Positions 2,374-39,134 of a DNA stretch of 45,989 nucleotides are shown one piece after another. The position numbers were made by a program, and so were the translations under genes. The stretch comes from an uncultured Bacteroidales bacterium (GTDB lineage Bacteria > Bacteroidota > Bacteroidia > Bacteroidales > F082), in contig CAMUYT010000004.1 of NCBI GenBank assembly GCA_947164955.1, positions 1-45,989 of the forward strand. The letters are read 5' to 3'. Within the stretch, counting starts at the first letter, position 1; each line of letters starts with the position of its first letter. Under the pieces are notes generated by a model, which searched no databases, was not told the DNA's origin, and was given only the letters and a program-made list of their open reading frames with translations.

Positions 2374-3096
2374 ATGAAAGTTGAGTTGTTTGTACCCTGC
2401 ATCATTGACCAGTTCTATCCTGAAGTGGCTTCCAATACAGTGAAGGTGTTGGAACGCGCAGGCGTTGAAGTGGAGTACAATCCGGAGCAGACCTGTTGCG
2501 GACGTTTTGCCTATAATGCGGGCTTTATTGAAGATGCAAAGGAGTTGGGCGACAAGTTCCTTAATGACTTTTCGTACAACGGTCCTGTAGTGGCCCCCTC
2601 GGCAGCTTGTGTGCATTACATCAAAAAACGTTATCCTGAGTTGTTCTTTAACACTGCCAACCATTTGAATTTCAAGCGGATGGTGGCTAATGTCTACGAG
2701 TTGACCGATTTCTTGGTCAACAAGGTGCAATTCGACGATTTTGGTGCCGAGTTCCCTTATAAGGTGACGTTCCACGACAGCTGTAGTGCCTTGCGTGGCT
2801 CGGGATTGGGTAAGGAGGCGCGGCAACTGCTGTCAAAGGTTAAAGGCTTGGAGCTCATCGAGATGAAACAGCCCGATTTGTGCTGTGGCGCTGATTTTTC
2901 CTTGGAAGTGGGGCATGAAATCCTGTCGGAAGGCATGGCAAGCCACAAGGTGAAGAATGCCTTGAACACGGGTGCCGAATACATCGTTTCGACTGACATG
3001 ACTTGCCTTATGCACCAAAAAGCATACATCGAGAAAGAAGGATTGCCCATCAAGGTGATCCATATCGCCGATGTTTTGGCTTCGGGATGGTTCTAA
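2374..3096 (+). CDS. (Fe-S)-binding protein, LutA/YkgE-like CCG-domain protein
   Basis: CIIDQFYPEVA...CCGRFAYNAG and HDSCSALRGSGLG...DLCCGADFS repeated CCG-type cysteine motifs. Confidence 0.85.
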   Translation: MKVELFVPCIIDQFYPEVASNTVKVLERAGVEVEYNPEQTCCGRFAYNAGFIEDAKELGDKFLNDFSYNGPVVAPSAACVHYIKKRYPELFFNTANHLNFKRMVANVYELTDFLVNKVQFDDFGAEFPYKVTFHDSCSALRGSGLGKEARQLLSKVKGLELIEMKQPDLCCGADFSLEVGHEILSEGMASHKVKNALNTGAEYIVSTDMTCLMHQKAYIEKEGLPIKVIHIADVLASGWF

Positions 3097-3100
3097 ACAA

Positions 3101-3670
3101 ATGAATATGAATGATTATTATATACATGAAAGCAGCTTCGTAGATGATAACGTGAGCATCGGGAAAGGTACGAAAATTTGGCATTTCTGCCATATTCAGT
3201 CGGGTGCTGTCATCGGCGAGAACTGCTCTTTCGGACAAAATGTGAACATCGGCAACAACGTGCATATCGGCAATGGTGTGCGCATCCAAAACAATGTGTC
3301 GGTCTATGAAGGTGTCGAGATTGAAGACAACGTGTTCTGCGGTCCGAGCTGCGTGTTCACCAATGTGACCAAGCCTCGGGCGCATTTCCCCGTGCACGGT
3401 GTCTACGCCAAGACCAAGATTTGCGAAGGTGCTTCGTTGGGCGCCAACTGCACCGTGGTTTGTGGCCATACGGTCGGCAAGTGCGCTCTCATCGCCGCAG
3501 GTGCCGTGGTCACCAAAGACGTGAAACCCTATGCCTTGATGGCAGGCGTTCCCGCCCGTCAAATCGGCTGGGTGTGTGAATGCGGTCAACGCCTCGATGC
3601 CTTGTTGCAGTGCAGTTGCGGCAGAGAATACAAAGAAATAAACGGTGAATTGAAACCGGTAAAGCCCTGA
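3101..3670 (+). CDS. Left-handed beta-helix (hexapeptide) acetyltransferase, WbpD/WlbB-like
   Basis: Hexapeptide repeats (IGENCSFGQNVNIGNNVHIGNGVRI); C-terminal CECGQRLDALLQCSCGREYK as in WbpD-type enzymes; ATG at 3101 preferred over 3071. Confidence 0.85.
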   Translation: MNMNDYYIHESSFVDDNVSIGKGTKIWHFCHIQSGAVIGENCSFGQNVNIGNNVHIGNGVRIQNNVSVYEGVEIEDNVFCGPSCVFTNVTKPRAHFPVHGVYAKTKICEGASLGANCTVVCGHTVGKCALIAAGAVVTKDVKPYALMAGVPARQIGWVCECGQRLDALLQCSCGREYKEINGELKPVKP

Positions 3671-3722
3671 CGGGGCGACCCTATATCAACGGGGATATCC
3701 CTGAAAAACAAAAACAGAGAAT

Positions 3723-4853
3723 ATGCAATTCAGAGACCTAAAAACACAATATGCTGTCCTGAAGGACGAAATGGATAAGGCCATTCTCGATGTGGTCGCC
3801 TCAAGCGCCTACGTGATGGGCCCTAAGATTAAGGAGATGGAGACCGCATTTGCCGAGTACGTCGGTGTGAAGCACTGCATCGCCTGCAATAGCGGCACCG
3901 ATGCCTTGCTGCTTGCCTTGAAGGTGTGGGACGTGAAACCTGGCGACGCCGTGTTCGTACCCAGCTTCACCTTCTTCGCTTCTGCCGAGGTCATCGCCAT
4001 GCAAGGGGCAACGCCGGTCTTCGTCGATGTCGACAAGGATACGTTCAATATGGACGTGGCCGATCTCGAACGTAAGATTGAACAGACCCTGAAGCGGGAC
4101 AAATTGACGCCACGCGTTATTATTGCGGTCGACCTGTTTGGCCTTCCAGCCGACTTCAAGGCGATCCGTAAGGTGGCCGAAAAACATAACCTCTTTGTAC
4201 TTGAAGACGGTGCCCAAGGCTTTGGTGGCCGCATCGGCAATCAAAAAGCCTGTACGTTCGGCGACATCTCCACCACCTCGTTCTTCCCTGCCAAGCCTGT
4301 GGGGTGCTACGGTGACGGTGGTGCTGTGTTCACCGACAACGACGAGTGGGCCGCTTTGCTCGATTCCTACCATATCCACGGCAAGGGCAACGACCGCTAC
4401 GACAACGTGCGTATCGGCATGAACTCACGCTTGGACAGCATCCAGGCGGCCATCCTCATGGTCAAGTTGAAGGCCTTTGCAGCGCATGAGTTGGAATATG
4501 TCAACAAGGTGGCGGCACGTTATACGGAGTTGCTCCACGACGTGGTAAAGACGCCTATCGTGCCTGAAGGCTTCTATTCCAGTTGGGCACAATACACGCT
4601 ACAACTTGAAAATAAGGAAGTCAGATCGGGATTGCAGAACGCCTTGAAGGCCCTCGACATCCCCACGGCCATCTATTATCCCATCCCGATGCATCGCCAA
4701 ACGGCGTTCAACTATCTGTGCCTGGATGAGAACCGTTGCCCTGTGTCCGACCAGCTGGCCGACACGGTCATTTCCTTGCCCGTCCATCCCTATCTCTCGG
4801 AAGAGGATCAGGATAGGATTTGCGAGGCTGTACGTCAATATTTGGGAAAATAA
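3723..4853 (+). CDS. DegT/DnrJ/EryC1/StrS family sugar aminotransferase, WbpE-like
   Basis: CNSGTDALLLAL, EDGAQGFGGRI, TTSFFPAKPVGCYGDGGA PLP-aminotransferase motifs. Confidence 0.9.
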   Translation: MQFRDLKTQYAVLKDEMDKAILDVVASSAYVMGPKIKEMETAFAEYVGVKHCIACNSGTDALLLALKVWDVKPGDAVFVPSFTFFASAEVIAMQGATPVFVDVDKDTFNMDVADLERKIEQTLKRDKLTPRVIIAVDLFGLPADFKAIRKVAEKHNLFVLEDGAQGFGGRIGNQKACTFGDISTTSFFPAKPVGCYGDGGAVFTDNDEWAALLDSYHIHGKGNDRYDNVRIGMNSRLDSIQAAILMVKLKAFAAHELEYVNKVAARYTELLHDVVKTPIVPEGFYSSWAQYTLQLENKEVRSGLQNALKALDIPTAIYYPIPMHRQTAFNYLCLDENRCPVSDQLADTVISLPVHPYLSEEDQDRICEAVRQYLGK

Positions 4854-17711: not shown

Positions 17712-19760
17712 ATGAAACTTTTAATAATAGGTGGCGGTGCGATTGCAGATGGCAATCATATACCTTCTGCAAAAAAAATACTAGATATCGCTGATATTTA
17801 TTTAGCAGAGCCAAGTATGCAACAAGCAGAAAAGCTCAGAACCAAACATGGGCTGAAAAATGTGGTTAGTGATTACCATGAAGTCTTGACTTTAGTGGAC
17901 GCTTGCGTCATTTGTACACCACCACATGTCCGCAATAGCATCCTTAAGGACTGTCTTGCAGCCCATAAGCATGTGCTTTGCGAGAAACCACTCTCGCCAT
18001 CGTCAGTTGAGACGAAGCAGATCCTGAAATCAGGTCCAAATGACCTTGTTATTGGGATGTGTCACAGCTACCGTTTCTTCCCAAGCAGACGGAAGATACG
18101 TCAGATGATAAAGGATGGTTTCTTCGGAAAACAAGTCACCATAAGCATCAATGAAGGCTTGGCCTCAAATTGGCCTACAGTGTCGGGGTATTGCTTCCGC
18201 AAGGAATTAGTGCCTGGCGGTGCACTTTACGACAATGGCATTCATTCTTTGGATTTTTTGCTTTGGTGTCTGGGTCAGCCTGATAAGATAAAATATGAAG
18301 ACGATGCAATGGGTGGCTTAGAAAGTAATCTTACTATCGATATGAGTTTTGGTGAGGCCAAGGCATTTTACAAGTTGAGTCGTACGAGGGAGCTTTCCAA
18401 TACCATTACTATTGAAGGCAATGGGCATAAAGCCCTCCTTGGAGTCTTCGATTCAAGAAAGATGATGCTTGATGGCAAGGAATTGGTGCTTGAAGGTGAT
18501 GGCACATCGCAATTGGGCAATTTCCTTGGTGCAATAGAAGGGAAAGAAAAGTTGGTGTGTCCAGTGGAGGACGGATTGGCGGTCATTGAAATGTTGGAGC
18601 GGTGTTATGCGCAGAAAAAGCAGCAAGACTACGAAAAACGTCCTCTTGGCGGTTTTGAAGGGAAGACGGTGTTTATTACAGGCGGCACTGGCTTTATTGG
18701 CAGTCACTTGGTTGAACAACTGGTTCTCCATGAAGGAGCAAAGGTAAAGGTGTTGGTACACAAATGGGGTAAGGCTGCATATGTCAGCCGTTTTGATGTT
18801 GACTTCATCCAAGCTGATATTCTTGATGCGGAAGCCATGGCAAAGGCAATGGAAGGATGTGACTTTGTTTTCCATTTGGCTATCGTAGGTGGAGCCGAGA
18901 CCAATGTCAAGGCCACGGAATCGATTCTTGCCGCTGCAAAGAAAACAGGCATTAAGCACGTTGTTCAGATGAGCAGTGTCGTAGTTCATGGCGAGACAGT
19001 TCCACCAGATTTGACTGCCGATTCTCCGTTGATTCCGTATGACGACTCGTATGCGCAAAGCAAGTTGCAGTCTGAGAAACGCTTTTGGGAACTCTTAGAT
19101 GAGTATGGTTTACATGGTTCGATAGTTCGCCCGACTTACGTTTGGGGACCTTATTCCATGTGGTACACTATTTATATCATGGAGTTGATGCGAAAAGGAG
19201 AGTTTAGCTGGGTCGATAAAGGAAATGGCATCTGCAATGCGGTGTATGTGGGCAATGTCGTTGACTTATGTTTGCTTTGTTGCACCAATCCTAAAGCAGA
19301 TGGACAGGCATTTATCGCTACTGATGGTGAGCAGAAGACATGGCGTGAGTTTTATGGGCATTATTTGAATGTGATAGGGAAAAAGCCAGAGGATTATCCT
19401 TCGGTGCCACTCAAGGATGGTGCTTTCAGGAAGATGCGTTTGAATATCAAGAATGCCTTGTGGAAACGTATGGTTGTGTTGATGGACAAATACGAAGCTA
19501 AGCGTTCCACTTCGCCTCGATTGGCCTTGTGGCTATATAAAGCTCCTCGAAAAGTGCTTCGTCTGATCCGTAAGGTGGTAATGCAAAACCTCCCGGAGAA
19601 AAACGCGACCGAAATGGCCATATATAGTCAATCTGCCCCAATCAATGTCCAGAAAAATAATGAAGTTCTTGGTTTCCAGCCCCGCTATTCAGTGGAAAAG
19701 GGGATGGAAATTACTTGTGAATGGCTGAAATGGAGCGATTTGAATAATAATAAAGGTTAA
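17712..19760 (+). CDS. Fusion: N-terminal Gfo/Idh/MocA-type oxidoreductase + C-terminal NAD-dependent epimerase (SDR)
   Basis: N-terminus LLIIGGGAIADGNHIPSAKK...HVLCEKPLSPS...GGALYDNGIHSLDFLLWCLG; second Rossmann motif KTVFITGGTGFIGSHLVEQ from about 18661; Y-x3-K as YAQSK. Confidence 0.88.
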   Translation: MKLLIIGGGAIADGNHIPSAKKILDIADIYLAEPSMQQAEKLRTKHGLKNVVSDYHEVLTLVDACVICTPPHVRNSILKDCLAAHKHVLCEKPLSPSSVETKQILKSGPNDLVIGMCHSYRFFPSRRKIRQMIKDGFFGKQVTISINEGLASNWPTVSGYCFRKELVPGGALYDNGIHSLDFLLWCLGQPDKIKYEDDAMGGLESNLTIDMSFGEAKAFYKLSRTRELSNTITIEGNGHKALLGVFDSRKMMLDGKELVLEGDGTSQLGNFLGAIEGKEKLVCPVEDGLAVIEMLERCYAQKKQQDYEKRPLGGFEGKTVFITGGTGFIGSHLVEQLVLHEGAKVKVLVHKWGKAAYVSRFDVDFIQADILDAEAMAKAMEGCDFVFHLAIVGGAETNVKATESILAAAKKTGIKHVVQMSSVVVHGETVPPDLTADSPLIPYDDSYAQSKLQSEKRFWELLDEYGLHGSIVRPTYVWGPYSMWYTIYIMELMRKGEFSWVDKGNGICNAVYVGNVVDLCLLCCTNPKADGQAFIATDGEQKTWREFYGHYLNVIGKKPEDYPSVPLKDGAFRKMRLNIKNALWKRMVVLMDKYEAKRSTSPRLALWLYKAPRKVLRLIRKVVMQNLPEKNATEMAIYSQSAPINVQKNNEVLGFQPRYSVEKGMEITCEWLKWSDLNNNKG

Positions 19761-28844: not shown

Positions 28845-29770
28845 TGAAAGTACTCGTAGTGGCATCATACAATAAAGGTCGCTTCGCGCCTTTTATCATC
28901 GAGCAAGCGGAAGCCCTAAAGAAACAGGGCTGTCAGGTCGAGTTTTTTGGCTTGCATGGCAAAGGATTATGGGGGTATGTGAAGAATCTGCCAGCATTAA
29001 GGCATCAGATGAAATCGTTTTGCCCTGATGTCATCCATGCCCATTATGGCCTCTCGGGCCTTTTTGCCAATATGCAAAGACGGATTCCAGTAGTGACCAC
29101 CTATCATGGTTCCGACATTAACGACAAAAGCGTGCTTCGTTTCTCCAGGATGGCCATCTGCCTTTCGGCTTGGAATGTCTTTGTTTCCACCAAAACATTG
29201 GAGATTGCAAAGCCAAAGAAAAAATACTCACTTATTCCCTGTGGCATAGACCTTTCCGACTTGCAACTGACTGAAAAATCAGCAGCGCGGCAAAAGATGA
29301 ATCTGTCTGCCGAAAAAAAATACGTCCTCTTTGCAGGGGCTTTTGACAACAAGGTCAAAAATGCGCCATTGGCCAAAGAGGCTGTTTCGCTTTTTCGTGA
29401 TAATAATGTTGAGCTATTAGAACTGAAAGGGTATTCACGTGACGAAGTGACCCTTTTGATGTGCGCTGCCGATGCCTTTCTGATGACCTCGTTCACGGAG
29501 GGTTCACCGCAGGTGGTCAAGGAAGCTTTGGCCTGTGGCTGCCCTATTGTGAGCGTGGATGTAGGCGATGTGAAGGAAAGGACGCAAGGCGTAGAAGGAT
29601 GCTATGTGGCAAAGACGCGCGAGCCTCAGGAACTGGCTGAATTGCTTCGGAATGCGATGACGTTTGAAAGAAAGACCAAAGGCAGGGAAAGAATTCTTGC
29701 TGATGGATTGGACAATTGTCAGGTAGCAGCCAAATTGACAGATATTTACCAGATAATCCAAAAATCATGA
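28844..29770 (+). CDS. Glycosyltransferase family 4-like
   Basis: VIHAHYGLSGLFANMQRRIPVVTTYHGSDIN...PCGIDLSDL...FLMTSFTEGSPQVVKEALACGCPIVSVDVGDV. Confidence 0.92.
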   Translation: MKVLVVASYNKGRFAPFIIEQAEALKKQGCQVEFFGLHGKGLWGYVKNLPALRHQMKSFCPDVIHAHYGLSGLFANMQRRIPVVTTYHGSDINDKSVLRFSRMAICLSAWNVFVSTKTLEIAKPKKKYSLIPCGIDLSDLQLTEKSAARQKMNLSAEKKYVLFAGAFDNKVKNAPLAKEAVSLFRDNNVELLELKGYSRDEVTLLMCAADAFLMTSFTEGSPQVVKEALACGCPIVSVDVGDVKERTQGVEGCYVAKTREPQELAELLRNAMTFERKTKGRERILADGLDNCQVAAKLTDIYQIIQKS

Positions 29771-30390
29771 AAGCATATCTTGAACTGAAAAAACAACCAG
29801 TTCCCAACTATGAGGCCAACGGCTTGTGGAAAACCATGCGTCTGTCGGCTAAGGAACATGGATATAAGTCGGCTTTGGTGTTCGGCTTTGTGCGCTGGAA
29901 AGACCACATGCTCAATGTGTGGGCGCAGACTTTTCCCTGGAACAAGGCCCGCATCAAGATGCAGCGTTGGAGAGGCGTTAAGATTGGCAAGAACGTGCAT
30001 GTGGGCACCTATGTCAATTTGGACTTGCCTTATCCTTATTTCATTACCGTCGAGGATGGTGTGTCGCTGGCGGGTAGCATCACGATCTTGACGCATAACA
30101 AGCCATTGGGGTACCATCGCAATTGCAGTGAATCCTATATCGCGCCTGTCACCGTCCATAAAAATGCTTGGGTGGCGGTTAATGTGACGATTCTTCCTGG
30201 CGTGGAGATAGGAGAGGGCGCCATTGTGGCGTCCAATAGCTTGGTGAACAAGGATGTCCCACCATTGACTTTTTGCGGTGGCATTCCAGCCAAGGTGATT
30301 AAGGATTTGTCGGACAAGTTGAAAGACAATTATACGCCTGAGGAGTTTGAAAGAATACTCGCCGAGAGAAAAGAAAAATACGGAATCTGA
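29767..30390 (+). CDS. Hexapeptide-repeat acyltransferase (paralog of 37322-37924)
   Basis: RWRGVKIGKNVHVGTYVNLD...ITILTHNKPLGYHR...NAWVAVNVTILPGVEIGEGAIVASNSLVNKDVPP. Confidence 0.9.
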   Translation: MKAYLELKKQPVPNYEANGLWKTMRLSAKEHGYKSALVFGFVRWKDHMLNVWAQTFPWNKARIKMQRWRGVKIGKNVHVGTYVNLDLPYPYFITVEDGVSLAGSITILTHNKPLGYHRNCSESYIAPVTVHKNAWVAVNVTILPGVEIGEGAIVASNSLVNKDVPPLTFCGGIPAKVIKDLSDKLKDNYTPEEFERILAERKEKYGI

Positions 30391-31491
30391 ATGATTATTC
30401 TCATCCAACTGAGCCATCCTGCTCATTTTCACCTTTATAAGAATGTGGCCAAAAACCTGATGGCTGACGGCCACAAAGTCTTTATCCTCATCAAGACCAA
30501 GGATATACTTGAAGACTTGCTCAAGCAGTCGGGGTTGCCCTATCACAATATCCTGAAGGAAGCCCATCGCAAGAGCAAACTAGGCATCTTGTGGGATATG
30601 TTGGTGCGAGACTGGAGAATGCTGCGTTTTGTAAAGAATAACAAAATCGACTTGTTGACAGGCTCTACAGTAGAAGTGGCCCAGGTGGGCTGGCTGACGA
30701 GGAAATATCGCGTGAACACGGGGGAGGATGACATGCGGATTGTACCTCTTTTCCAAAAGATGGCAGGGCCTTTTATCCAAACCATTCTGTCTCCTGTGTC
30801 GTGCGACAATTGGAAGCTTGAACCGAAATCCATCAAATACAACGGTTATCATAAATTAGCTTATCTTCATCCAAATCAATTTCAGCCAGATAGGACTGTC
30901 GTTGAACGGTATTTCTCGATGGATAAACCTTATTTTGTTTTGCGTTTCGCCAAACTGAAAGCCTATCACGATATTGAATCGGATGCCCATGGGATCAATA
31001 CGGAGATAGCGCAGCATCTTATCGACGTGCTGCTGCCGCATGGAAACGTCTATATCACTTCGGAACGTGAATTGGAACCGCAATTTGAGAAGTACCGCTT
31101 GATTATCAATCCCTTGGATATTCATCATGTTTTGGCTTTTGCTAAGCTTTATGTAGGCGACAGCCAAAGTATGGCGGTGGAAGCGGCCATGTTGGGCACA
31201 CCAAGTTTGCGATTTAACGACTTTGCAGGAAAAATTGGCGTACTCGAAGAGTTGGAACATAAGTATGAACTTACCTTCGCCATTTCGCCATCCGAGCCCC
31301 AAAAGCTTTACGATAAGGTGGCGGAATTGCTGTCCATGCCAGATTTACATGAGACCTTCCAACAACGTCGACAGAAAATGCTCTCTGAAAAAGTCGATGT
31401 GACAGCGTTTTTTACCTGGTTCATCGAGGATTATCCGGAAAGCCGCAAGATAATGAAAGAGAATCCGAACTATCAGCTACGGTTTAGATAG
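30391..31491 (+). CDS. DUF354-like GT-B fold protein
   Basis: IQLSHPAHFHLYKNVAKNLMADGHKVFILIKTKDILEDLLK...VGDSQSMAVEAAMLGTPSLRFND. Confidence 0.85.
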   Translation: MIILIQLSHPAHFHLYKNVAKNLMADGHKVFILIKTKDILEDLLKQSGLPYHNILKEAHRKSKLGILWDMLVRDWRMLRFVKNNKIDLLTGSTVEVAQVGWLTRKYRVNTGEDDMRIVPLFQKMAGPFIQTILSPVSCDNWKLEPKSIKYNGYHKLAYLHPNQFQPDRTVVERYFSMDKPYFVLRFAKLKAYHDIESDAHGINTEIAQHLIDVLLPHGNVYITSERELEPQFEKYRLIINPLDIHHVLAFAKLYVGDSQSMAVEAAMLGTPSLRFNDFAGKIGVLEELEHKYELTFAISPSEPQKLYDKVAELLSMPDLHETFQQRRQKMLSEKVDVTAFFTWFIEDYPESRKIMKENPNYQLRFR

Positions 31492-32620: not shown

Positions 32621-33562
32621 ATGAACAAAGATAGTAAGATATATGTGGCTGGCCATCGTGGGATGGTGGGAAGTGCCATCGTGCGCGAATTGCAACGACA
32701 AGGCTATGTCACTATCGTTACCCGCACCCATGAGGAACTCGACCTCTGTCGGCAGGAACAAGTTGAAGCTTTTTTCGCCGCTGAGCAACCAGAATACGTG
32801 TTTCTTGCAGCAGCGAAAGTAGGGGGTATCGTTGCCAACCAAAACGCCCTCGCCGACTTCATGTACGACAACATGATTCTTGAGATGAATGTCATCCATT
32901 CGGCTTGGAAAAACGGCTGTAAGAAGTTAGAGTTCCTCGGCTCGTCGTGCATCTATCCTCGCATGGCGCCACAACCCATGGCAGAGAGCTGCTTGCTCAC
33001 TGGCGCACTGGAGAAGACCAACGAAGCCTATGCCTTAGCGAAAATCAGCGGGCTGAAATATTGTGAGTTCCTTAACCGACAATATGGCACCGACTACATC
33101 AGTGTGATGCCCACCAACCTCTATGGACCCAATGACAATTACCACCCCGAACACAGTCATGTGTTGCCCGCTTTGATTCGTCGCTTCCACGAGGCAAAAA
33201 TCAATGGACTGAAAGAGGTGACCTGTTGGGGCGACGGCTCGCCGTTGCGCGAGTTCCTCTATGTTGACGATTTGGCCAATCTTTGCGTGTTCCTGATGAA
33301 CCACTATTCAGGCAATGAGACGGTCAATGCAGGCACGGGCAAAGAATTGACTATCAAGGCGCTCACGGAGCTGGTCGCCAAGGTTGTTGGATATCAAGGC
33401 GTAATCAGATGGGATGCCACACGGCCCAATGGAACGCCCCGCAAGTTGCTGGATGTGAGCAAGGCAAAGGCACTTGGATGGACCTATAAGACCGAACTTG
33501 AAGATGGCATCCGCTTAGCCTATGATGACTTTTTGAATAACCCGATGCGTGCCGAACGATGA
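32621..33562 (+). CDS. fcl: GDP-L-fucose synthase
   Basis: IYVAGHRGMVGSAIVRELQRQGY, FLAAAKVGGIVANQNALADFMYDNMILEMNVIHSAW, LGSSCIYPRMAPQPMAESCLLTGALEKTNEAYALAKISGLKYCE; ATG at 32621 rather than 32408. Confidence 0.96.
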   Translation: MNKDSKIYVAGHRGMVGSAIVRELQRQGYVTIVTRTHEELDLCRQEQVEAFFAAEQPEYVFLAAAKVGGIVANQNALADFMYDNMILEMNVIHSAWKNGCKKLEFLGSSCIYPRMAPQPMAESCLLTGALEKTNEAYALAKISGLKYCEFLNRQYGTDYISVMPTNLYGPNDNYHPEHSHVLPALIRRFHEAKINGLKEVTCWGDGSPLREFLYVDDLANLCVFLMNHYSGNETVNAGTGKELTIKALTELVAKVVGYQGVIRWDATRPNGTPRKLLDVSKAKALGWTYKTELEDGIRLAYDDFLNNPMRAER

Positions 33563-34728
33563 GCAAGAAAGTTTTTGTTTCAGGATGCTATGACTTGTTG
33601 CATAGCGGCCATGTGGAGTTCTTCCGGCAGGCCGCGCAGTATGGCGACCTTTATGTGGGCATCGGCTCTGATGAGACCATCCTACACTACAAGCATCATA
33701 AGACCCTATATCCGGAAAAAGAGCGTCTTTTCATGGTGAAGGCCATCCGTTATGTCAAGGATGCCTTCATCAATGATGGCGATGGGGTGATGGACTTTGT
33801 TGGCACTGTCGAGCGACTGAAGCCCGACGTGTTTGTGGTCAACGAGGACGGCTCTTCTGAAGCAAAACGTAGGTTTTGTGAGGAGCATGGCATTGAATAT
33901 ATAGTGCTGCAACGTACCCCTTCGGAAGGATTGGAAGCCCGTTCTTCCACCTCACTAAAACATGACTTGTGCCAAATCCCTACCCGCTTGGACCTGGCCG
34001 GCACGTGGATTGACCAGCCTTATGTCTCCTGCTACGCCCCAGGATGGGCCATTACCATTTCGTTGGAGCCGACTTTTGAGGTGCGCGAACGCTGTGGCCT
34101 CTCCACTTCGACGCGCAATATGATAAAGCGGATATGGCCCATGAAGCTCCCCGACATGGATCCCGAGACGTTAGCCAAACTCGTTTTCTGCTTTGAGAAC
34201 GATCCGGAACGTAGTGATGGCATCATCAGTGGCGCACAAGACAGCATCGGTATCTGTATGCCTGGATTGGTGCGACATTATTATGACAAACTCTATTGGC
34301 CTATTAAGTTTGAGACTTGCCAGGATGACGAAGTCCTGAGTTGGCTTGAACGGCATCTCATCATGATTCCTATGGAGCCACGGCGTCAGGGCTGCTCGGT
34401 GGTGGAAGGCAAGGACATCACCGAGCCCAAGGTCAGGGCTTTGGCTCAGGCCGCCGACGATTGTTGGAATGCGATTTTGGCCAAGAATCTGGACGCATTT
34501 GCCTTGGCGTACAAATCCTCATTTGACGCACAAACCGCCATGTTCCCCGCCATGATCCAGGGCTCGGTGCAAAGTTATATTGATAGGTATTCCGCCACTG
34601 ATGGGGTGCTGGCATGGAAGATGCCTGGTGCCGGGGGCGGTGGTTATCTTGCTTGTGTGGTCACTGATGCGCAAACGTTCTGCCAAAACCATCCCGAAGC
34701 GATTTCACTCAAAATCAGAAGAAAATGA
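33559..34728 (+). CDS. Fusion: N-terminal cytidylyltransferase-like (HxGH) domain + C-terminal GHMP kinase-like domain
   Basis: VFVSGCYDLLHSGHVEFFRQAAQYGDLYVGIGSDETI and RSSTSLK; then PTRLDLAGTWIDQPYVSCYAPGWAITISLEP, SGAQDSIGICMPGL, MPGAGGGGYLACV. Confidence 0.85.
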   Translation: MSKKVFVSGCYDLLHSGHVEFFRQAAQYGDLYVGIGSDETILHYKHHKTLYPEKERLFMVKAIRYVKDAFINDGDGVMDFVGTVERLKPDVFVVNEDGSSEAKRRFCEEHGIEYIVLQRTPSEGLEARSSTSLKHDLCQIPTRLDLAGTWIDQPYVSCYAPGWAITISLEPTFEVRERCGLSTSTRNMIKRIWPMKLPDMDPETLAKLVFCFENDPERSDGIISGAQDSIGICMPGLVRHYYDKLYWPIKFETCQDDEVLSWLERHLIMIPMEPRRQGCSVVEGKDITEPKVRALAQAADDCWNAILAKNLDAFALAYKSSFDAQTAMFPAMIQGSVQSYIDRYSATDGVLAWKMPGAGGGGYLACVVTDAQTFCQNHPEAISLKIRRK

Positions 34729-36349: not shown

Positions 36350-36401
36350 TCAGATTTTTGGATGCTATTTGTGTATAACTATGTAATGGTAATTGCTGCG
36401 A

Positions 36402-37325
36402 ATGAAAACTGAACGCATTTGTTTGATTACTAACGACGTAGAGACCACGTCTATTCTGAATCACAAGCTACGCGACAAGACGGGCGAATATGTCCTTAAT
36501 CAAGGCATGCCTCGATTGTTGGATTTGTATGACAAGTATGGTGTGAAGGCCACGTTTTTTTATACGGGGCATATCGCCAAACTTTATCCCGATGTGGTGA
36601 GAATAGCCTATGAACGAGGCCATGAAGTGGGCTCGCATGGCCTGACGCATGAGGTAAGCAAGGCTTTTGACGTACTTTCGCCCGAAGAACAGCTGTCGCA
36701 TCTGAGGCAGTCGAAACAGATTTTGGAAGACATCATCGGCGAGGAGGTGGTATCGTTTCGCGCTCCTGCGGCTCGGGTCGATGAGCGGTTCCCGCTCATC
36801 ATGAGAGAGGCGGGCTTTAAAGTCGACAGCTCGGTTTCCTCACAGCGATTGGATATGATGTTTTCTTTCGGCGCTTTGAAAAAACTGCATTGGATTACAG
36901 CTCCGCGTAAAGCATATTTTACAAAGGAGGACAACATCTTTAAGAGAGGCGGTTCTGAGATATTGGAAGTGCCCATTTCAGCGATGGGCTTCCCCTATAT
37001 TGGCACGTTTATGCGGATCGCTCCAGCGTTGAATCGTTGCACGAGACAGGTGCTCTATTGGGAGACTTTGTGCAATGGACGTCAGTTCGTGTTTCTCACG
37101 CATCCCAACGAGTTCATTGACGAAGACCAAGAGACCACAGAAATCGAGCGGCGGGCAAAGAACTACATCTCATACCTACTGGGGGACGTGATTCGTCATA
37201 GGTTGAAGGTGAAAAACTTGGGCGCGAAGGCTTTGCCGCTCTATGACAGGGAATTGGAGTTCTTCCAAAGGAAAGATTTCGAGTTTGTTACATGTAAAGA
37301 ATACTACAAAAGAATCAAAAAATGA
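36402..37325 (+). CDS. Polysaccharide deacetylase (NodB homology)
   Basis: LITNDVETTS...LLDLYDKYGVKATFFYTGHIAKLYPDVVRIAYERGHEVGSHGLTHE...SFRAPAARVD. Confidence 0.9.
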   Translation: MKTERICLITNDVETTSILNHKLRDKTGEYVLNQGMPRLLDLYDKYGVKATFFYTGHIAKLYPDVVRIAYERGHEVGSHGLTHEVSKAFDVLSPEEQLSHLRQSKQILEDIIGEEVVSFRAPAARVDERFPLIMREAGFKVDSSVSSQRLDMMFSFGALKKLHWITAPRKAYFTKEDNIFKRGGSEILEVPISAMGFPYIGTFMRIAPALNRCTRQVLYWETLCNGRQFVFLTHPNEFIDEDQETTEIERRAKNYISYLLGDVIRHRLKVKNLGAKALPLYDRELEFFQRKDFEFVTCKEYYKRIKK

Positions 37326-37924
37326 AAGACTATTGGCCATTAGAGAAGAGGCCTTTGCCCAACCATAAAGAAAGAGGATTCTTTCAGGCATGCAAGCTGT
37401 CGGCCAAGGAGCATGGTTATACGGGCTTCATGGCAAGCGCAAGGTTCTTGTATCGACGATATATGGATTATTTTTGGCAAGTGCTTGCTTTTAGGGTAAT
37501 TCCTTATAGTAAGATGCGTGTGAAACTGCACAAATGGCGTGGAGTGAAAATCGGCAAGAATGTGATGATTGGCCCTCAAGTGGTCATTGATGACGTCTAT
37601 CCCAATTTCGTCGTAATTGAAGATGGCGTTTCGCTTGCGGCCAATGACTATATCTTGACGCATAGCAAGCCACTCGAATATCATCAGTTTCTCACCGAAT
37701 CATATGTTGCCCCTGTCATCATCAAGAAGAATGCTTGGATAGCCATCAGTGTGACTATCCTTCCTGGAGTCACTGTTGGAGAAGGGTCCATCGTGGCAGC
37801 GGGGTCAGTGGTGACTAAAGACGTGCCGCCTTTCTGCATGGTTGCAGGAGCTCCTGCAAAAGTGATTCGAGAGTTTGAAATGAAGGATGGTATACCTGTA
37901 GGCTTTAAACCTAAACTGCCATGA
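37322..37924 (+). CDS. Hexapeptide-repeat acyltransferase (paralog of 29767-30390)
   Basis: LSAKEHGYTGF...KWRGVKIGKNVMIGPQVVID...ILTHSKPLEYHQ...NAWIAISVTILPGVTVGEGSIVAAGSVVTKDVPP. Confidence 0.9.
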   Translation: MKDYWPLEKRPLPNHKERGFFQACKLSAKEHGYTGFMASARFLYRRYMDYFWQVLAFRVIPYSKMRVKLHKWRGVKIGKNVMIGPQVVIDDVYPNFVVIEDGVSLAANDYILTHSKPLEYHQFLTESYVAPVIIKKNAWIAISVTILPGVTVGEGSIVAAGSVVTKDVPPFCMVAGAPAKVIREFEMKDGIPVGFKPKLP

Positions 37925-38322
37925 GAATCGACGATTTTTATGTAGGGCAAACTGCTTCTTTGAAGAAAGTATTTCTTACAGAAGAGGTTGAGGCATTTGC
38001 TGAAATGTCATTAGACTGTAATCCTATACATATCGACCTCGACTATGCAGAACATTCCTTATTTGGTGCCCGAATTGTCCATGGCTTCTTGGTCGGTTCG
38101 TTGATTAGTGCTGTGTTTGGGACGCAACTTCCAGGCGAGGGTGCCATTTATCTTCACCAAGAAATGAACTTCAGAAAACCAGTGTTTCATGGTGAGGAAA
38201 TTACTGCTACTGTGGTTGTTACGAATGTAAGAAAAGACAAATCCATTCTTTATTTCGATACGAAATGTGAGAACGCCAAAAGGGAAGTTGTCATTGAAGG
38301 GAAGGCAGTCCTAAAAGTATAG
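37921..38322 (+). CDS. MaoC-like hotdog-fold (R)-specific enoyl-CoA hydratase family protein
   Basis: FYVGQTASLKKVFLTEEVEAFAEMSLDCNPIHIDLDYAEHSLFGARIVHGFLVGSLISAVFGTQLPGEGAIYLHQEMNFRKPVFHGEEITATVVV. Confidence 0.9.
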   Translation: MRIDDFYVGQTASLKKVFLTEEVEAFAEMSLDCNPIHIDLDYAEHSLFGARIVHGFLVGSLISAVFGTQLPGEGAIYLHQEMNFRKPVFHGEEITATVVVTNVRKDKSILYFDTKCENAKREVVIEGKAVLKV

Positions 38323-38327
38323 TAAAG

Positions 38328-39134
38328 ATGCGTGACTTTACCCTGAAATCATATCGGTCCTTATTGGAGGCTTTCCAATCGGCAGGCTACCATTTCCAGA
38401 CTTTCGAGGAATTGATGACGGCTCCCGTTGAAGGCAGGTCGGTGGTTATGCGCCATGACGTGGATGAGTTGGCATGGAATGCCTTGAAGATGGCTAAACT
38501 TGAGCATGCCTTGGGTATTCGTGCCACCTATTTCTTCCGTGTTGTCAAGCAAAGCAATGTGCCTGAGGTGATTGAGAGAATTGCACGCATGGGGCATGAG
38601 GTAGGATACCATTACGAAGACTTGGCCTTGGCTGAAGGCGACGAAGGCAATGCCATCGAATCTTTTAAGTCCAATTTGGCGTATTTTCGCGGTTTCTATC
38701 CCGTGAGGTCGGTTTGCATGCATGGTAGCTCGACTTCCAGATACGACAATCGCCTGCTGTGGAAAAACCATTCGTTATCAGAATTTGGTTTGGTGGGTGA
38801 GCCATACCTTTCCGTTGACTTCGACAAGGTGTATTACATGACCGACACAGGATATGCTTGGGATGGAGGGAAGTATGCCACACGTGACATTGTGGAGAGT
38901 CCGTTTGAATTGAAGTTTCATACGACACAACAAGTTGTGGAGTGTATCAATGCTGGTCAGTTTCCACATCATGCCTTGATTTTGGCCCATACGCTTTGGA
39001 CGGATAGCTTGTTTCAGTGGAACTACTTGCATTTCAGGGAGTTCCTTAGGAATCATGTCAAATTATTGGCCAAGAACAATCGGCTTGTAGCTAAGCTTTA
39101 CGGTAAACTGGTCGATGCCTATTGGAAAAAATGA
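38328..39134 (+). CDS. NodB-superfamily polysaccharide deacetylase-like protein
   Basis: VVMRHDVDELAWNALKMAKLEHALGIRATYFFRV...RIARMGHEVGYHYEDL...CMHGSSTSRYDN. Confidence 0.75.
   Translation: MRDFTLKSYRSLLEAFQSAGYHFQTFEELMTAPVEGRSVVMRHDVDELAWNALKMAKLEHALGIRATYFFRVVKQSNVPEVIERIARMGHEVGYHYEDLALAEGDEGNAIESFKSNLAYFRGFYPVRSVCMHGSSTSRYDNRLLWKNHSLSEFGLVGEPYLSVDFDKVYYMTDTGYAWDGGKYATRDIVESPFELKFHTTQQVVECINAGQFPHHALILAHTLWTDSLFQWNYLHFREFLRNHVKLLAKNNRLVAKLYGKLVDAYWKK

Follow-up and report, generated by a model that had tools for sequence, protein, structure and literature searches.

A MaoC-type hydratase gene overlapping an acyltransferase gene in a Bacteroidales polysaccharide locus, and its probable part in glycan acylation

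Why should a gene of the MaoC type stand in a polysaccharide locus and begin within the stop codon of an acyltransferase gene? The question is raised by a stretch of 45,989 nt from a Bacteroidales bacterium (here referred to as the window), which is itself a large polysaccharide locus. A first-pass annotation had regarded MaoC proteins as usually belonging to fatty-acid or PHA metabolism, and had proposed that this one could make a 3-hydroxyacyl-CoA for glycan acylation. We analyzed the genes of the window together with their homologues in related and distant genomes.

Gene organization of the locus

The nearest relatives of the source genome are Bacteroidales MAGs, several of them of ruminant origin. 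The locus encodes an ABC-2 transporter, an ABC ATPase, glf, an initiating sugar transferase, an aminotransferase and a CpsB/CapC phosphatase and, by our reading of the ORFs, many glycosyltransferases and a Wza-like and a Wzc-like protein. Genes for a hexapeptide transferase with a DegT aminotransferase and for a Gfo/Idh-epimerase fusion (3071-4853 and 17712-19760) are WbpD/E/B-like; tentatively, we read them as a diamino-sugar pathway within this locus. The protein encoded at 33559-34728 joins a cytidylyltransferase-like domain at its N-terminus to a C-terminal part like the kinase end of Fkp; it follows gmd/fcl-like genes and adjoins a FucP-like MFS gene (34725) and rhaM (35966), a neighbourhood that is possibly a fucose or heptose activation block.

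Near the window end lies a tight run of four forward-strand genes, NodB1-HexAT2-MaoC2-NodB2. NodB1 (36402..37325) is a CE4-type polysaccharide deacetylase gene, identified by Pfam and by its HGLTH, FRAP and LTHP motifs; the ORF list gives its start as TTG at 36393, and its relatives begin at the ATG at 36402. HexAT2 (37322..37924) encodes a LacA/maltose-acetyltransferase-like left-handed beta-helix acyltransferase of 200 aa, assigned by Pfam, a PDB match and AlphaFold/Foldseek. The ORF coordinates confirm that MaoC2 (37921..38322, 133 aa) begins within the acyltransferase stop, with its ATG overlapping the TGA of HexAT2 as ATGA at 37921-37924. HexAT2 and NodB1 share a second ATGA overlap in the same manner (37322-37325), and NodB2 (38328..39134), for a CE4-fold (WbmS-like) deacetylase-like protein recognized by a weak fold match and a DVD motif, starts 6 bp past the MaoC2 stop.

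A second acyltransferase slot lies upstream on the same strand. It contains HexAT1 (29767..30390), which by comparison is a paralogue of HexAT2 (about 50% identical), and is bordered by a gene for a DUF354 glycosyltransferase-like protein (30391..31491), placed by family scan and synteny. We refer to HexAT1-DUF354 as slot 1, which in other loci has the form HexAT1-[MaoC1]-DUF354, and to NodB1-acyltransferase-NodB2 as slot 2.

MaoC2 is a PhaJ-type protein

In the Pfam scan MaoC2 matched MaoC_dehydratas (PF01575) above the cut-off with E 1.3e-18, and the hotdog MaoC domain spans its full length. It aligns without gaps over residues 5-132 to the solved structure of Aeromonas caviae PhaJ (1iq6, E 6e-29). 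PhaJ has the catalytic dyad Asp31/His36 and the chain-length positions Leu65 and Val130 (PMC4823750). The active-site set is complete in MaoC2, with the dyad Asp32/His37 (PhaJ Asp31/His36, numbered without Met), Gly55 and Ser63. We looked for loss of the Asp/His pair on alignment and found both residues invariant in all 37 aligned homologues; moreover, all four active-site residues are unchanged throughout the window clade and in 18 homologues from glycan loci. MaoC2 is 74-83% identical at the amino acid level in five other loci, in which synonymous sites are saturated, and the comparison across related loci shows purifying selection. Because of this conservation, and because the same overlap with the acyltransferase gene occurs in six of six loci, MaoC2 is more than a chance ORF. 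It is a complete PhaJ-type MaoC protein and, judged by family and catalytic residues, probably an (R)-specific enoyl-CoA hydratase.

The same data bear on the idea that MaoC2 is a decayed or non-catalytic protein, assisting the acyltransferase structurally or by binding CoA. Nothing in the slot-2 clade favours it; a change of VHG to VPG beside the active site of slot-1 MaoCs would fit it, while the invariant Asp, His, Gly and Ser and the purifying selection speak against it, and we regard it as scarcely credible. The VPG form itself is found in the slot-1 MaoCs (L033:4249-4653, L062, L063 and L065-L067) and in L068.

At the two chain-length positions of PhaJ, MaoC2 has Phe66 and Leu131. Since these are bulkier than Leu and Val, the sequence suggests a pocket at least as small as that of PhaJ, and hence a short-chain (C4) substrate. 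The slot-1 MaoCs have Ile/Val at these two positions.

Distribution in related genomes

MaoC2 is the sole MaoC found in its genome, which is 73% complete. A MaoC homologue of any kind is present in only 23 of 173 family genomes, which places MaoC2 outside core metabolism; a housekeeping fatty-acid enzyme was rejected for the same reason, namely that MaoC is missing from most relatives. For the coupling to ACYLTRANSFERASES, we sought HexAT1 and HexAT2 in the 173 family genomes at E <= 1e-40. One or both occur in 11 genomes, each of which has a close MaoC as well; among the 162 genomes that have neither, five do. The Fisher value of 6e-14 is descriptive, since the genomes are phylogenetically related, so that the 11 cases are not independent events, and the genes stand in one locus.

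HexAT2 is followed by MaoC, ATGA overlap included, in six of six loci. In L062 and L065, slot 2 contains a shorter acyltransferase and no MaoC. In slot 1, a MaoC from another subclade is inserted after HexAT1 in six loci; it is absent from the window and three other loci, all four of which have the slot-2 MaoC. L033 has a MaoC in both slots, and in genome G107, 11 kb separate the MaoC from HexAT1 within one locus. As a result, every HexAT1/HexAT2 locus has at least one MaoC, whose location varies. That its place shifts while its presence holds suggests that the product of one MaoC diffuses and is shared as an acyl-CoA donor across the whole locus. The neighbourhood survey that the first-pass annotation had called for thus finds MaoC in company with the acyltransferases of glycan loci.

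The genus also has another, distantly related type of MaoC, about 27-30% identical (L022-L024, L026-L029, L059:2481-2945, L073 and L074). In L073 and L074 the gene after it encodes an HpcH/HpaI (CitE-like) lyase, and a neighbour of similar size stands at the other loci; the pair is possibly another acyl-donor module.

Acyltransferases, deacetylases and the acceptor

The sugar acyltransferases that a 3-hydroxyacylated glycan would require are present in the locus as HexAT1 and HexAT2. HexAT2 has a Hexapep match in Pfam (E 1e-13) and the left-handed beta-helix with a conserved loop histidine; this residue, His114, is invariant in 15 homologues and lies two positions from the template histidine in the PDB alignment. 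Its AlphaFold model has a pLDDT of 84, and the best Foldseek match is the galactoside O-acetyltransferase 3ftt. Further down the list of left-handed beta-helix fold matches stands the N-acyltransferase AntD (3vbi). By sequence and by fold, HexAT2 matches galactoside and maltose O-acetyltransferases best, and these closest relatives make an amino-sugar acceptor uncertain.

Both acyltransferases are extremely conserved: HexAT2 (window 37322-37924) has 97.5% amino acid identity over six loci and HexAT1 (window 29767-30390) 93% over nine, although their fourfold sites differ at 56-60%; the neighbouring MaoC, DUF354 and NodB2 have 75-79% identity. These figures come from the window, L030, L033, L034, L062, L065-L067, L070 and L071. 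Such conservation is unusual among glycan-decoration genes. Recent transfer was rejected as the cause for HexAT2, in which 56% of fourfold-degenerate sites differ at 97.5% protein identity; the same contrast argues for strong selection on the protein. The HexAT1 sequence is nearly the same with or without an adjacent MaoC, which counts against the proposed donor supply.

The two genes that flank HexAT2-MaoC2 had both been taken for NodB-like deacetylases, a description that fits the upstream one only. NodB1 has a Polysacc_deac_1 match (PF01522, E 5.7e-22), the H-x3-H metal motif (HGLTH) and the RxP motif (FRAP), which are invariant in eight loci, and its closest PDB sequence is the peptidoglycan deacetylase 3qbu; by these signatures it is a canonical CE4 deacetylase. 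NodB2 is non-canonical. The Pfam scan (E <= 0.001) gave it no match, the resemblance of its predicted fold to CE4 enzymes is weak (Foldseek E 1e-4, TM about 0.4-0.5, with WbmS 3hft among the matches), and the DVD motif and His95 are present while the second metal histidine of H-x3-H is absent. For these reasons NodB2 may not be a deacetylase. It belongs to a WbmS-like CE4-fold group with many invariant residues (RHDVD, GYHYE, MHGS).

An acyltransferase directly follows NodB1 in eight of eight loci, and NodB1 is missing where its acyltransferase slot is missing (L066, L067 and L108). This coupling and joint loss favour, in a suggestive way, a scheme in which an amino sugar is deacetylated and then acylated anew. 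An overlapping variant is that HexAT2 acylates a hydroxyl, while NodB1 acts on another sugar or simply removes acetyl. The O-acetyltransferases at the head of the HexAT2 matches agree with such O-acylation; the regular order of NodB1 and acyltransferase, their loss together, and the left-handed beta-helix N-acyltransferases such as AntD lower in the list of matches to the HexAT2 model do not. We give O-acylation somewhat less than an even chance, and favour the amino group.

MaoC-acyltransferase pairs in other bacteria

Homologues of MaoC2 were found beside acyltransferases of several folds. In Acinetobacter and Psychrobacter (L045, L041 and L038, the last two assigned by gene order and sizes) the order is RmlB-RmlA-ketoisomerase-acyltransferase-MaoC-aminotransferase, and the partner of MaoC in L045 and L060 is a PseH-like GNAT. 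In L035 (Saprospiraceae) and L064 (a second locus of G109), which are Qui3N/Fuc3N-type loci, MaoC lies between ketoisomerase-like genes and an LpxA-like left-handed beta-helix transferase; a similar transferase occurs in L143. L040, from a Lachnospiraceae MAG, has MaoC between a hexapeptide transferase of this helix type and PseG in a pseudaminic-type locus. MaoC stands beside an Antibiotic_NAT-fold transferase in L068 and L118, and adjoins a membrane acyltransferase in L061. From the 49 loci of the wider search (L117-L165), the family scan took in ten neighbour proteins.

Among 5426 E. coli genomes, three have MaoC in a Qui3N/Fuc3N-type slot. The order in L110 is rfbB-rfbA-ketoisomerase-N-acetyltransferase-MaoC-aminotransferase, where the N-acetyltransferase and MaoC occupy L110:10262-11423; the HCP8S3_I1 cluster is IS-flanked and near metG/yehI (one genome inspected).

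Other relatives, within the family and the order, lie outside glycan loci, between thiolase and SDR genes or beside CoA-transferase genes, and by family and gene order they would belong to C4 acyl-CoA metabolism. In plasmid records, all MaoC homologues among the 25 best listed are metabolic. The view of MaoC as an enzyme of fatty-acid or PHA metabolism therefore holds for the superfamily, but not for those relatives that adjoin glycan-locus acyltransferases in several phyla. The tree does not unite the glycan-locus MaoCs in one clade, as the label needs four changes on it, and its deep branches are weak. The association with glycan loci may therefore have more than one origin or have moved repeatedly. 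Our literature search found no work linking MaoC to O-antigen or capsule loci.

These neighbourhoods bear on whether MaoC2 serves general metabolism (fatty acid, PHA or butyrate) and lies in the locus by accident. Such a role would agree with the mostly metabolic superfamily and with homologues outside the genus that often stand beside thiolase, SDR or CoA-transferase genes. It is at odds with a sole MaoC that is missing from most relatives, with the absence of PhaC, with an acyltransferase linkage that persists as the gene changes place, and with the same pairing across phyla; we consider it very improbable.

Probable supply of the acyl donor

PHA synthase (PF07167) is absent from all 13 MaoC genomes of the genus, five of them at least 90% complete, and a phaC-phaJ role in PHA supply was rejected on this ground. 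On its contig C184 the genome of the window encodes bcd, hbd and a partial crt, which make crotonyl-CoA the obvious substrate of MaoC2; these families are also present in relatives. Hbd is (S)-specific. The bcd/hbd/crt pathway passes via crotonyl-CoA, from which a PhaJ-type enzyme would give (R)-3-hydroxybutyryl-CoA, a product out of reach of Hbd. A search of nine genomes of the genus brought up no true thiolase, so that the origin of acetoacetyl-CoA or crotonyl-CoA is only partly traced. At L106, on contig C184, hbd is separated from the crt fragment by two unrelated ORFs, of which one looks RhuM-like by eye, a layout unlike a plain butyrate operon.

Taken together, we hold it likely, with a probability of roughly 0.7, that MaoC2 is a dedicated supplier of (R)-3-hydroxyacyl-CoA, most likely 3-hydroxybutyryl-CoA, for glycan acylation. 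MaoC2 would hydrate crotonyl-CoA from the hbd/crt/bcd pathway of the cell to (R)-3-hydroxybutyryl-CoA, a diffusible donor serving the whole locus. HexAT2 would move the (R)-3-hydroxyacyl group onto a repeat-unit sugar, and its paralogue HexAT1 probably transfers the same group. The favoured acceptor of HexAT2 would be the amino group freed by NodB1, with acetyl exchanged for 3-hydroxyacyl, and acylation of a hydroxyl would be the alternative. The analysis establishes the gene anatomy, family, catalytic residues, selection and recurrent acyltransferase coupling, together with the presence of bcd, hbd and partial crt and the absence of PHA synthase. We infer the direction of the reaction, the C4 chain length, the use of this donor by HexAT2 and HexAT1, and the acceptor. 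The interpretation first proposed for MaoC2 is thus supported in part, through the glycan-locus coupling, the intact PhaJ residues, the crotonyl-CoA pathway and a PHA explanation ruled out to the extent that the genomes permit; its premise of a second deacetylase has become weaker.

The donor role could be the same with an (R)-3-hydroxyacyl group other than 3-hydroxybutyryl, one that is longer, is branched or carries further substituents. Chain length varies among MaoC hydratases, the slot-1 MaoCs differ in their Ile/Val pocket and VPG, and the several folds of MaoC-linked acyltransferases mean that the acyl group may differ among loci. For MaoC2 itself we think another acyl group unlikely, as the bulky Phe66 and Leu131 point to a short chain (compare PMC4823750), bcd/hbd and partial crt offer crotonyl-CoA, and the metabolic relatives lie in C4 modules.

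Comparison with known systems

Decorations with 3-hydroxybutyryl recur on surface glycans, and the gene sets consulted here give the transferase but do not account for the donor. MaoC2 would offer a simple route, in which crotonyl-CoA of butyrate-type metabolism is re-hydrated to the (R)-form. In a wider sense, PhaJ-type hydratases may be a cassette that moves among the surface-glycan loci of bacteria to supply acyl donors, paired with acyltransferases of several unrelated folds, one hydratase per locus being able to serve several transferases via diffusible (R)-3-hydroxyacyl-CoA. We lean slightly towards this generalization, by which 3-hydroxyacylated glycans would be expected wherever such hydratases are present, uncultured gut and rumen Bacteroidales included. 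The hydratase-transferase pairing recurs in many unrelated bacteria and therefore should predict coats with a 3-hydroxybutyryl-type decoration. A hydratase travelling with transferases would be a genomic marker of 3-hydroxyacyl decorations; if this is true, one could predict and test which acyl decoration many unstudied capsules carry, and coat chemistry is tied to fermentation in gut bacteria.

PhaJ of Aeromonas caviae (1iq6) resembles MaoC2 in its length, its full-length ungapped alignment and its catalytic Asp/His, Gly and Ser. However, PhaJ feeds a PHA synthase, whereas MaoC2 lies in a genome without PhaC and next to a glycan acyltransferase, and the chain-length positions are Leu/Val in PhaJ and Phe/Leu in MaoC2.

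The Qui3N/Fuc3N gene sets (FdhC of E. coli O103; fdt/qdt of Acinetobacter) likewise have an acyltransferase in a surface-glycan cluster, and (R)-3-hydroxybutanoyl on Fuc3N, Qui3N and pseudaminic acid is known from Acinetobacter and Enterobacteriaceae glycans (PMC3726653, PMC9676051). In the Qui3N/Fuc3N-type loci L035, L045, L064 and L110 a MaoC of the same family as MaoC2 adjoins the transferase. The window differs in that its LacA-like transferase lies by CE4 deacetylases and not by a ketoisomerase and aminotransferase pair. The published E. coli gene set for O103-type Fuc3N(R3Hb) has the transferase FdhC and names no hydratase. One E. coli with the O91-type wzy has the acyltransferase slot and no MaoC. 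O91 carries 3-hydroxybutyryl Qui3N, a point that we take as a lead only. A hydratase is thus not needed everywhere for 3-hydroxybutyryl glycans, and given such sets the presence of MaoC may point to a supply that depends on CoA, or to some other acyl group. The A. baumannii module has the order fdtACDB, and its source paper predicts the acetyl form; this order would fit L045 with MaoC at the place of fdtD.

In the anthrose operon of Bacillus, the enoyl-CoA hydratase AntA, a crotonase-fold enzyme, makes the acyl donor for the N-acyltransferase AntD. The likeness is a hydratase dedicated to the donor of a sugar acyltransferase, and AntD (3vbi) itself is among the fold matches of HexAT2; MaoC2 differs in its hotdog fold, and the acyl group and locus are others. 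Polysaccharide PS A2 of Bacteroides fragilis is a Bacteroidales capsule with a C4 3-hydroxy acid, 3-hydroxybutanoic acid on heptose (PMC12648304), but in ether linkage and in the (S) form, which is a different chemistry from that proposed for MaoC2. Glycans with 3-hydroxybutyryl are already known, and donor supply by a MaoC-type enzyme within a glycan locus would be a new variant on them.
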